From an uncultured Marinobacter sp. (GTDB lineage: Bacteria; Pseudomonadota; Gammaproteobacteria; Pseudomonadales; Oleiphilaceae), in assembly GCF_913055835.1 (NCBI RefSeq), contig NZ_CAJXKQ010000013.1:39512-103511 (forward strand): a DNA stretch of 64,000 bases. Reading direction: 5' to 3'. The notes beneath the pieces were generated by a model, which worked only from the letters and a program-made list of their open reading frames with translations, was not told the origin of the DNA and searched no databases. The position numbers and the translations under genes were made by a program. Below are positions 44,888-56,192 of this stretch, piece after piece; position 1 is the first letter of the stretch; the number at the start of each line of letters is the position of its first letter.

Positions 44888-44998
44888 AGAAGCGATTGGG
44901 TGGGCCTTTCCAAAACACGCTGTGAATACGTCCCTGTACGCTCGGCTCCGCCATCCATGGCTCCGCACGGTTTTGGAAAGGCCCACCCAATCCCTTCT
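44888..44998. repeat. long-stem inverted repeat element A (conserved core on minus strand)
   Basis: Arms 44888-44916 and 44970-44998 pair at 28 of 29 positions, with the inner 23 perfect (GATTGGGTGGGCCTTTCCAA and onward). The 53-base loop, read on the minus strand, begins GTGCGGAGCCATGGATGGCG. It shares 25 consecutive bases plus the blocks AGCGT, GGACG and AGCGT with element B near 54.3 kb, whose outer arms differ. It lies between the rpoH terminator and the reductase gene. Overlapping open frames on either strand are by-products of the repeat. Confidence 0.85.
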
Positions 44999-50660: not shown

Positions 50661-50978
50661 TCAGGCGGCGGCGCAGCCGTTGTTGCCGACAGGCGTCTTG
50701 CCCAGTACATCCTCATAGAAGAATGCCAGGGCCTGGTTGGCCTGGTTGAAACGCGCCCGGGATAACCGCATACGATCACTCAGATAGTCCAGAAATTGCT
50801 GCCGGTCTTCATTGGCCAGCGCATCCGGATCCTTGAGATCGGTGAACAGTACGAACCGGGTAATCCAGTGCAGGTAGGTCTGCTCTGAGCGTTGATTGAG
50901 CTTGTGCTTGTGAATGGCGTCCTTGATCCGTGCCACTAAGCCTGGCTGGGATTGTTCCAGCGCCTCGGTGATGTCCAT
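50661..50978 (-). CDS. integrase N-terminal (SAM-like) domain protein without catalytic domain
   Basis: The 105-residue product aligns only with the core-binding (SAM-like) domain of tyrosine recombinases, most like integron and phage integrases: ARIKDAIHKHKLNQRSEQTYLHWITRFVLFTD and FLDYLSDRMRLSRARFNQANQALAFFYEDVLG. The chain ends after VGNNGCAAA with a clean stop. The catalytic Arg-His-Arg-Tyr domain is absent from it and from all frames downstream, where the neighbouring exported-protein gene lies. It may be a decayed integrase or a small DNA-binding protein recruited from one. It is not a functional recombinase. Confidence 0.75.
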   Translation of the reverse strand: MDITEALEQSQPGLVARIKDAIHKHKLNQRSEQTYLHWITRFVLFTDLKDPDALANEDRQQFLDYLSDRMRLSRARFNQANQALAFFYEDVLGKTPVGNNGCAAA

Positions 50979-53686: not shown

Positions 53687-54127
53687 GTGTTCCAGCACCC
53701 GGCCAGCGACGGATCGCAGGCCGGCACCGGCAGCCTGTTCGAACGACTGGAGCAGGCGGCTGAACCGGCCGGCCAGAGTATGGGAGAAGTAACCCACGTG
53801 GTTGAGTCCATCAAGCGCCACCTGGTGCGCCTGCTGAATGCCCACCCGGGCAACAGCGCCAGCGTACCGGACCTGGGGTTACTGGATTTCAACGACGCCA
53901 CCCTCGGCACCCACGATCTGAGCGTCCAGATCCGAGGCGCGATCCGGCAGTGCATCGAGAAGTTCGAACCCAGGGTGAAGCGGGTTGATGTGGTCAATCT
54001 GCCCCAGGGACCCGATCCGCTGCAGCTGCGGTTTCAGGTGACGGTCTATCTGAACGTCGGTTCGAAAGACGACAAAACAACCATAGATTTGGTTCTGGAT
54101 GACAAGCGGTATTACCGCGTGATTTAG
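53687..54127 (+). CDS. tssE: type VI secretion baseplate protein TssE (gp25-like)
   Basis: This 146-residue baseplate component is related to phage T4 gp25. The block HVVESIKRHLVRLLNAHPGNSASVPDLGLLDFND, with the LN..PG.....PxYGL-like pattern, and the ending VTVYLNVGSKDDKTTIDLVLDDKRYYRV match the family. The start is GTG three bases after the tssC stop, with AAGGA upstream. Two long hairpins lie between it and tssF, breaking an otherwise tight operon. Confidence 0.93.
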   Translation: MFQHPASDGSQAGTGSLFERLEQAAEPAGQSMGEVTHVVESIKRHLVRLLNAHPGNSASVPDLGLLDFNDATLGTHDLSVQIRGAIRQCIEKFEPRVKRVDVVNLPQGPDPLQLRFQVTVYLNVGSKDDKTTIDLVLDDKRYYRVI

Positions 54128-54139
54128 ACAGCAGGGAAA

Positions 54140-54231
54140 GGAGGGGGTGGCGACACTTTTCTTCTGGGAAAAAACAACTCGCTTCGCTCAGACATCTTTT
54201 TTCCCGCCAGAAAAGCATCCCCACCCCCTCC
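54140..54231. repeat. symmetric long hairpin after tssE
   Basis: Three perfectly paired blocks are separated by internal loops of equal size on both sides: GGAGGGGGTGG/CCACCCCCTCC (11), a 6/6 loop, TTTTCT/AGAAAA (6), a 3/3 loop, and GGGAAAAAA/TTTTTTCCC (9). The 22-base apical loop includes ACTCGCTTCGCTCAGAC. There is no open frame across it. It is unrelated in core sequence to elements A and B. Confidence 0.8.
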
Positions 54232-54280: not shown

Positions 54281-54395
54281 GAGCAGGGGTGTGGTTGATC
54301 TTTCCAAAAGTGTGCGGAGCCATGGATGGCGGAGCCCAAGCGTCCCATGGACGGGCTTGAAGCGTCTTTTGGAAAGATCAACCACGCCCCTGCTC
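54281..54395. repeat. long-stem inverted repeat element B (conserved core on plus strand)
   Basis: Arms 54281-54310 and 54366-54395 pair at 29 of 30 positions, and the odd pair (T/G) would be a G-U wobble in RNA. The arm begins GAGCAGGGGTGTGGTTGATC, unlike element A. The 55-base loop shares GTGCGGAGCCATGGATGGCG and onward with element A in the opposite orientation. It lies just upstream of the tssF ribosome-binding site, so an RNA hairpin could affect tssF expression. Confidence 0.85.
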
Positions 54396-54419
54396 GGAGC
54401 CAGACAAGGTGCAGTAACG

Positions 54420-56192
54420 ATGAAGTTAAATCGATTTTACAGGGACGAGTTGAGTTTTCTCAGGCTCCAGGGCCGGGAATTCGCGGATGCCCATCCTCAG
54501 CTGACCCGGTTTTTGTCCGAGCAGAGCACCGATCCGGATGTTGAACGGCTGCTGGAAGGCTTTGCGTTTCTCACCGGAAAACTCCGCGAAAAAGTCGAAG
54601 ACGAGTTCCCGGAAATCACCCATTCGCTGCTGAACATGCTGTGGCCAAATTACCTTCGACCAGTGCCCAGTTGCACCATCATGCGTTTCGACCCGCAACT
54701 GCATGCCATCAGCGAACGCCAGCGGGTGGACCGACACACTGAAATCAAAAGCCGGCCCCTGGGCGACACCATGCGCCAGACCCAGTGCCGGTTCCGCACC
54801 TGCCGGGCGGTGGACGTTTACCCGGTCAGCGTCGCTGCGGCCCACGCGGAACACTCGCGGGAAGTCTCATCCGTGACCGTGGACCTGGCCCTGCATACGG
54901 ATCAGCCGCTGTCGTCTCTCGGCATGGGCAGTTTGCGGTTTTATCTCGGTGGCGAAAGCCACATTGCCGAGACGCTGTTCCTGTGGCTCAACCATTACCT
55001 GGAACGCATCGATCTGGTGGTGGGCGACGCTGTTTACCGCCTACCTGCCTCACTGTTGCAGCCGGTGGGTTTTGGCAACGACGAGGCTCTGCTGCCGTAC
55101 CCAAAGAACGCCTACCCCGGCTACCGCATCCTGCAGGAATACCTCAGCTTCCCGGAAGCCTTCCGTTTCGTGGACATCCACGGCCTGGCCCGCCGGCTGC
55201 CGGCGGTGCAGGCGGACGAAATCAGCCTGCGTTTTCATTTCAGCCGGATATTGCCGCCGGATGTGAAAGTGCGGGAGGACAATTTCCAACTCTACTGCAC
55301 CCCGGCGGTGAACCTGTTCACCCACGAGGGCGAGCCAGTGGATCTGAACGGTCGCCAGACCGAATACCGGATTTCGCCGTCCAGCCGCTCGCCGGATCAT
55401 TTTGAAGTATTCAGCATCGAGCAGGTGGAAGGCTGGCTGGAGGGCCGGTCAGGGCGCGGTGAGCCCCGGATCTACACCGCGTTTGAAAGTTTCCAGCATG
55501 AAGTGGAACGGGACCGCGGGCGCACCGCCCTTTACTACCGGATCCGCGCCCGAGACAGCGTTCGTGGGGATGGCTTTGACCATTACATATCGTTCGTCCG
55601 GGGCGACGAGTCTGAATGCCTTAACCGGCAGGAGGCGATCTCCCTCACCCTCACCTGCACCAACCGCCAGCTCCCCAGCCAGCTGGCGGTGGGCGAAATC
55701 TGCATGGCCACCGAGAGCACGCCGGCGTTTGCCACCTTCAGTAACATTACCCGGCCCACTGCGACCCTGCGGCCAACTCTGGATGGCAGCCTGTTGTGGA
55801 CGCTGATCTCGAATCTGTCCCTCAATTACCTGTCCATGCTGGACGTGGATGCGCTGCGAACAGTGCTTCGAGTCTATGATTTCCGGGCCCTGGTGGACCG
55901 CCAGGCGGAGCGGGTGTCCCAGAAACGACTGGCTGGTATTACCGGTATCGAGACGGCTCCGGTTGACCGGATGGTCAGGGGCCTGCCGGTGCGGGGGATT
56001 CGCTCGGTACTGAAACTGGACCAGCAGGCCTTTGCATCAGAAGGCGATCTCTACCTGTTCGGTACGGTTCTCAGCCAGTTCTTTGCTCTTTATGCCAGTA
56101 TCAACGCATTTCACCAACTGGAAGTGGTGAACACCGATAACCAGGAACGGTACACATGGACGTTACAGCAAGGTCAGCAGCCGCTGATGTAG
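54420..56192 (+). CDS. tssF: type VI secretion baseplate protein TssF
   Basis: This is a 590-residue baseplate wedge protein. The start NRFYRDELSFLRLQGREFADAHPQLTRFLSEQSTDPDVERLLEGFAFLTGKLREKVEDEFPE is the TssF hallmark, followed by HSLLNMLWPNYLRPVPSCTIMRF. The ORF track begins at 54243 within the repeat. The ATG at 54420 (MKLNRFYRDEL) has AAGGTG upstream. It overlaps tssG by 37 bases. The leader consists almost entirely of hairpin element B. Confidence 0.96.
   Translation: MKLNRFYRDELSFLRLQGREFADAHPQLTRFLSEQSTDPDVERLLEGFAFLTGKLREKVEDEFPEITHSLLNMLWPNYLRPVPSCTIMRFDPQLHAISERQRVDRHTEIKSRPLGDTMRQTQCRFRTCRAVDVYPVSVAAAHAEHSREVSSVTVDLALHTDQPLSSLGMGSLRFYLGGESHIAETLFLWLNHYLERIDLVVGDAVYRLPASLLQPVGFGNDEALLPYPKNAYPGYRILQEYLSFPEAFRFVDIHGLARRLPAVQADEISLRFHFSRILPPDVKVREDNFQLYCTPAVNLFTHEGEPVDLNGRQTEYRISPSSRSPDHFEVFSIEQVEGWLEGRSGRGEPRIYTAFESFQHEVERDRGRTALYYRIRARDSVRGDGFDHYISFVRGDESECLNRQEAISLTLTCTNRQLPSQLAVGEICMATESTPAFATFSNITRPTATLRPTLDGSLLWTLISNLSLNYLSMLDVDALRTVLRVYDFRALVDRQAERVSQKRLAGITGIETAPVDRMVRGLPVRGIRSVLKLDQQAFASEGDLYLFGTVLSQFFALYASINAFHQLEVVNTDNQERYTWTLQQGQQPLM

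Follow-up and report, generated by a model that had tools for sequence, protein, structure and literature searches.

Whether a long hairpin lying between tssE and tssF in a type VI (T6SS) operon is a switch of that operon, or a more general element that resides there, is the question raised by a stretch of 64,000 nucleotides (the window) from an uncultured Marinobacter sp. The operon looks complete from its sequence, and Pfam supports TssB, TssC, TssE/gp25, TssF, TssG and a ClpV-type ATPase, which confirms the location given in a preliminary description of this DNA. The inverted repeat has arms of 30 nt that are 97% complementary and enclose a loop of 55 nt; exactly as had been described, the arms form 29 Watson-Crick pairs and one T/G combination on the + strand. 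The RNA fold of the + strand reaches -77 kcal/mol (z -11.2), and none of 200 dinucleotide shuffles was as stable. The fold of the - strand is weaker (-69.6 kcal/mol, z -9.1) because the T/G becomes A/C there. The 3' foot of the element lies 24 bases 5' of the tssF start codon (Table 1).

Table 1. The tssE-tssF hairpin, its parts and its surroundings; positions refer to the window
Feature	Position	Strand	Remarks
Other TwoAYGGAY copy	44888..44998	-	different arms, same plan of the core
tssE (gp25-like), upstream gene	53687..54127	+	PF04965
Whole element	54281..54395	+	TwoAYGGAY-type RNA hairpin in mRNA sense between tssE and tssF; RF01731 41.5 bits, R1 86.0 bits
5' arm	54281..54310	+	outer ~18 nt copy-specific; inner CTTTCCAAAAG family-like
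Core hairpin 1	54314..54335	+	GCGGAGCC-AUGGAU-GGCGGAGC; CsrA-type ANGGAN hexaloop 54322-54327
AAGC/GCGT pairing around hairpin 2	54338-54341 with 54362-54365 (54338..54365)	+	helix 3 of the covariance analysis
Core hairpin 2	54344..54355	+	CCC-AUGGAC-GGG; CsrA-type hexaloop 54347-54352, 25 nt from the first hexaloop
3' arm	54366..54395	+	29 of 30 positions complementary to the 5' arm, plus one G-U
AAGG	54406..54409	+	likely Shine-Dalgarno of tssF, judged from the sequence; 3' of the element's 3' foot
tssF, downstream gene	54420..56192	+	PF05947; ATG at 54420

Scanned against Rfam at a permissive threshold, the region gave a single match, the TwoAYGGAY RNA (RF01731), which lies on the + strand (41.5 bits, E 1.4e-5) and spans the full model (positions 1-168). 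This score is below the gathering threshold of 43 bits, and a scan of the window at gathering threshold gave no match. A sister copy in the same genome (L023) scores 44.3 bits and is thus above gathering, and most copies scored against RF01731 fall under the threshold. TwoAYGGAY was described by Weinberg et al. in 2010 and has been an RNA family without assigned function since then (PMC2864571). The tssE-tssF copy shares with it an outer stem, here of 30 bp, that joins two adjacent hairpins, the terminal loops of which both read AYGGAY (AUGGAU and AUGGAC) and are supported by covariation; the gammaproteobacterial range agrees in part. What differs is that the element described here is an interspersed repeat of ~100 copies per genome with a copy-specific outer stem of ~28 bp, and that its loops follow ANGGAN and not strictly AYGGAY. 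From its sequence, the tssE-tssF element appears to belong to the TwoAYGGAY family or to stand at its edge.

The hairpin had been taken for the second of two copies in opposite orientation. Another copy does exist on the - strand of the window, flanked by genes for an rpoH-like sigma factor and a 3-hydroxyisobutyrate-dehydrogenase-like protein that both lie on the + strand, but the total in the genome is ~114 rather than two. BLAST against the genome found ~40 copies, and the covariance model R1, for which 60 diverse copies were used, found 114 at E <= 0.01, 103 of them above 60 bits, when the best 150 candidates were scored. The same model found 104 copies in the relative G054. In a survey of the genus at least one copy was present in 60 of the 61 members, with a range from 0 to at least 77 each, and in a survey of the phylum 31 of 399 genomes from 20 genera had matches. 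The named matches are mostly from Marinobacter, and others come from Halomonas/Vreelandella, Idiomarina, Saccharospirillum, Stenotrophomonas, Sedimenticola and one Desulfuromonadales MAG. In another family of the order, six copies in the same orientation form a tandem array with a regular spacing of ~227 bp (G250:C1:94432-95644).

In the core common to these copies two hairpins meet at a junction, GCC-AUGGAU-GGC and C(C)C-AUGGAC-G(G)G; this structure is 90.3% paired and shows a covariation of 0.63 versus 0.16 after shuffling. The inner pairs of the outer stem all have two-sided changes (12 of 12) and are 98.1% paired in 60 copies. Two CANGGANG (C-ANGGAN-G) hexaloops occur in 329 of the 340 cores found by the model in this genome, in G054 and in other species, the GGA triplets of the two loops being separated by 22-25 nt (340 cores). 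Since part of the core had been fixed by the pattern used for discovery, conservation of the loops was rechecked on covariance-model matches outside this pattern, where both loops were present in 40 of 44 cores with different stems. Variant stems of the first hairpin, AGC-AUGGAU-GCU and AUC-AUGGAU-GAU, still carry the loops. The nested stem proposed in the preliminary description (CAAGC/GCTTG and GTCC/GGAC) can be found in the sequence of this copy but is not conserved: 64.8% of the cells are paired and one pair has a two-sided change, which is no better than in shuffles.

Typical arms measure 28-29 bp, of which the inner ~11 bp are alike between copies; no two copies share the outer ~18 bp, which nevertheless stay paired. 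At arm positions that are not Watson-Crick pairs, counted on the strand with the core in sense, G-U exceeds A-C by 234:62 (340 copies, p ~ 1e-24), namely 82:12 in this genome, 50:15 in G054 and 102:35 elsewhere. As G-U and A-C mirror each other across the strands, the bias marks the strand which is under selection. It is 16:0 for copies with both neighbouring genes antisense, 19:1 between divergent genes and, more weakly, 22:10 between convergent ones. Selection at the RNA level, whatever direction the neighbouring genes take, is the simplest reading of this excess; strand-specific folding of single-stranded DNA or an asymmetric mutation process is a possible alternative. The single T/G of the tssE-tssF copy had already been read as a hint of selection on RNA in this orientation, and the hint is supported by the overall counts as well as by the orthologues of this copy (21:3).

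With respect to genes, as called by a simple coding-score gene caller, the single copies are distributed as 21 sense-tandem, 23 antisense-tandem, 19 convergent and 15 divergent, and no strand preference relative to genes was found. Nor was there an enrichment of sigma-70 motifs 5' of the 5' foot; an element-linked promoter was rejected because the best scores upstream are no better than those downstream. Random gene orientation of this kind, together with the ~114 copies and the range from 0 to at least 77 across the genus, would be expected of a dispersed palindromic repeat that spreads as DNA and has no function in the T6SS operon, its structure being maintained either by whatever machinery spreads it or through correction of palindromes by template switching. 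Differences in presence and absence between close relatives point in the same direction. The comparison with G054 revealed both shared and missing copies, in a ratio that is biased because the stretches of G054 were picked around its own copies, and at its sites without the element ~110-200 bp are absent with no clear target duplications.

A further feature that agrees with spreading as DNA is the strict arrangement of doublets. Of 51 pairs of neighbouring copies with less than 450 bp between them, 50 are arranged 5'-to-5' (13/13 in this genome, 16/16 in G054 and 21/22 elsewhere), as are 17 of 19 at distances of 450-1000 bp; examples from this genome are C8:63934/64237, C12:3664/3861 and C18:68454/68596. 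The cores within one doublet are somewhat more alike than others (0.76 vs 0.67, p 0.002). The gaps are mutually unrelated except for REP-type repeats in 5 of 13, and doublets as a co-mobile unit were rejected since the gaps share no homology apart from these REP insertions. These REP-type repeats (GTAGGTCGGATTAG...), for the most part arranged as inverted pairs, are located in the doublet gaps at C21:40297, C8:63934, C2:207229, C57:3937 and C19:66300, and the true REPs of this genome are a family separate from TwoAYGGAY. Like REP/BIME and REPIN elements, the TwoAYGGAY copies are dispersed extragenic palindromes which often form doublets of fixed orientation and may sit inside operons. In REPs, however, the stems and a flanking tetranucleotide are conserved, whereas here it is the core that is conserved and the arms are copy-specific; with at most 0.37 bit of information per flanking position an assignment to REP/BIME was rejected. 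A MITE was likewise rejected, as the outer arms are unrelated between copies and the empty sites of G054 show no clear duplication. Against a repeat that merely spreads as DNA stand the absence of conservation at arm ends and feet and of a clear target-site duplication, the strand-specific excess of G-U over A-C, the invariance of the loops and the deep vertical retention at the tss site described below. Pattern search of viral contigs and blastn against phage and plasmid records found no copies. Altogether, we consider a DNA repeat with no function of its own in the T6SS operon improbable.

A different structured domain, R2 (96-position model; covariation 16 vs 5.4 cells), occurs at 12 places in this genome and also in other species, and had no Rfam match in the one copy tested. 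In those examined, hairpin 2 of TwoAYGGAY is split by the domain directly after CA(U/G)GG. Copies in this genome include L205:2791-2886, L209:2780-2875, L211:1257-1352(-) and L232:5921-6016(-), and the domain is also found at L060, L083, L099, L115 and L117. Elsewhere in the order it is present in 21 of 146 genomes, where most copies examined follow a tRNA fragment that is broken at a GG and are themselves adjacent to the intact tRNA gene; at times it occurs in tandem (L297). R2 gives the impression of an element in its own right, mobile or structured and not described before. The window also contains, at 50661-50978 (-), a stand-alone ORF of 105 aa that consists of the N-terminal SAM-like domain of phage integrases only (PF13495).

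Alignment of the tssE-tssF gap in relatives, which had been proposed as a check, gave a divided answer. Among 30 relatives with a fetched tssF locus, 17 have the element in the gap, always in mRNA sense, but in 13 it is absent or replaced. The copies at this site have conserved feet (..ATGA|GA .. TC|GGAG..) and an inner pair AAAAG/CTTTT that is typical of the site, and these feet are also seen in tss-site copies of loci that carry the name Marinobacter, such as L071 and L081. Arms of the orthologues are 29, 30 or 31 nt long, and since the two sides match in length in 16 of 17, even changes in length are compensated; the identity of their outer arms has a mean of 0.68 (minimum 0.50) versus 0.91 for the core. 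On the TssF tree the element states are clustered, with 4 changes versus 11.3 when shuffled. Within an element-bearing clade, L181 and L182 have a mini-hairpin alone between the same feet, and in L159 an unrelated long hairpin lies there. Taken together, the clustering and these exceptions indicate that the element is inherited at the tss site and sometimes lost or replaced.

A further imperfect hairpin, family A (..CTTTTCTTCTGGGAAAAAACAACTCGCTTCGCTCAGACATCTTTTTTCCC..), is located at 54140-54231 of the window. BLAST gives as many as 19 matches to it in the genome, a number that includes self-matches of arms, and hairpins of this family also occur in close inverted pairs. An Rfam identity was rejected for it, the matches being chance microRNA models only. 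In other members of the genus, family A lies between tssE and tssF, either next to TwoAYGGAY or in its place.

That a family A hairpin or a mini-hairpin fills the gap in many relatives, as if the stem alone were wanted, would also be explained by an mRNA stabiliser similar to REP/BIME elements, in which the 30-bp stem blocks 3'-5' exonucleases and yields more tssBCE than tssFGHJKL product independently of CsrA. The E. coli REP element between malE and malF acts in this way, and the very stable stem, the long intercistronic gap, the vertical retention and arms that stay paired irrespective of their sequence are consistent with such a role. A plain stem would, however, need neither invariant ANGGAN loops nor a covarying core, and copies are antisense to genes as often as sense; this explanation therefore seems unlikely to us. 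An intrinsic transcription terminator, possibly a bidirectional one, would likewise have a long GC-rich intergenic stem, and several copies do lie in short convergent gaps, but between tssE and tssF it would cut off tssF and the remaining operon. It was rejected because the GGAGCC after the 3' foot is no U-tract and there is no terminator-like match on the + strand, and its probability is very small indeed.

The conserved loops have the form of published high-affinity sites of the CsrA/RsmE type. High-affinity sites of RsmE are ANGGAX hexaloops directly on a stem (PMC4005645), and CsrA dimers accept a site spacing of 10-63 nt with an optimum of 18 nt, the SELEX consensus of CsrA being RUACARGGAUGU (PMC7652899). 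At least two ANGGAN hexaloops on stems, 10-63 nt apart, are present in 329 of 340 cores, and their form comes near the SELEX consensus, which 15 cores match exactly. The spacing of 22-25 nt is within the range of the dimer and above its optimum, and would suit one CsrA dimer bridging both loops. Both GGA triplets are unpaired in the minimum-free-energy fold of only 141 of 312 copies; in the tssE-tssF copy the opening of both hexaloops costs 3.6 kcal/mol. The genome has a single csrA (C40:29913-30068, 92.6 bits), and csrA is found in 31 of 31 element-bearing genomes compared with 220 of 399 overall in the phylum, an association confounded by phylogeny. The models of CsrB (RF00018) and RsmY (RF00195) had no match in this genome, the control set for RsmY being uninformative. 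That TwoAYGGAY matches the CsrA motif has already been published as a hypothesis (PMC4333381), of which we found no later test in the literature searched; in a 2025 preprint the motif is still described as comparatively little explored and serves as an example in RNAs whose function is not known. The T6SS mRNAs of pseudomonads are RsmA targets repressed through GGA motifs (PMC10482370), making a T6SS link plausible here.

The tssE-tssF element is thus most likely, as far as its sequence tells, a CsrA-binding, nuclease-resistant mRNA element. We have good confidence that its RNA would bind CsrA, and with somewhat less assurance we think it probable that it is a TwoAYGGAY RNA in the T6SS mRNA whose stem presents two loops to a CsrA/RsmA dimer. 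A transcript containing the element would form a long stem that carries two CsrA-type loops at its top, and the C-ANGGAN-G hexaloops, ~25 nt apart, would be held by the dimer, which in the T6SS mRNA would come to lie just 5' of the tssF ribosome-binding site. At minimum, a nuclease-resistant stem would separate tssE and tssF. Bound or merely folded, the element may locally alter the translation of tssF or the decay of the two mRNA halves, although a measurable cis effect on tssF is a possibility we lean against. Most copies lie outside cis-regulatory positions. Similarly, the ~114 copies might jointly titrate CsrA as a dispersed counterpart of CsrB/RsmZ, but that this titration is globally meaningful seems rather doubtful. 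Antisense and divergent copies also show the wobble bias (16:0 and 19:1), although the lack of sigma-70 enrichment 5' of the 5' foot points to no promoter for their sense transcripts. CsrB/CsrC and RsmX/Y/Z also expose several CsrA-type ANGGA hairpin loops, whereas TwoAYGGAY has two loops instead of many, numerous dispersed copies and no promoter or terminator that was found. The CsrA/RsmA-bound T6SS leaders of Pseudomonas likewise place a GGA-loop RNA 5' of a T6SS ribosome-binding site, but the tssE-tssF element is intercistronic, lies in a structured element and does not overlap the Shine-Dalgarno sequence.

A dedicated T6SS element that sets the ratio of sheath to baseplate proteins, as had been suggested originally, is not borne out, since there are ~114 copies in all orientations, there is no terminator match and the element is missing or replaced in 13 of 30 relatives. 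The copies elsewhere, having no strand preference, promoter or terminator, leave a dedicated tss switch unsupported, and because they occur in all contexts a generic role, i.e. titration of CsrA or a spreading repeat that is bound incidentally, has the same likelihood as a dedicated switch. The always-sense vertical retention in 17 of the 30 relatives still allows for a local role on the T6SS mRNA.

As far as the searched literature shows, the interspersed expansion to ~100 copies, the strand-resolved evidence of selection on RNA, the fixed place in the T6SS operon and the 5'-to-5' rule of doublets are new. Tentatively, and with considerable doubt, TwoAYGGAY RNAs might be proliferating CsrA-docking modules, ~100 copies of which would titrate CsrA and bring transcripts, including that of the T6SS operon, under its control. 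If this is true, the reach of a global regulator would be set by a mobile repeat rather than by a dedicated sRNA gene, and an interspersed repeat would be linked with post-transcriptional control on a global scale and with the expression of the T6SS. With ~100 copies per genome and near-invariant CsrA-type loops, this is a harmless marine genus in which the function of TwoAYGGAY is directly testable.
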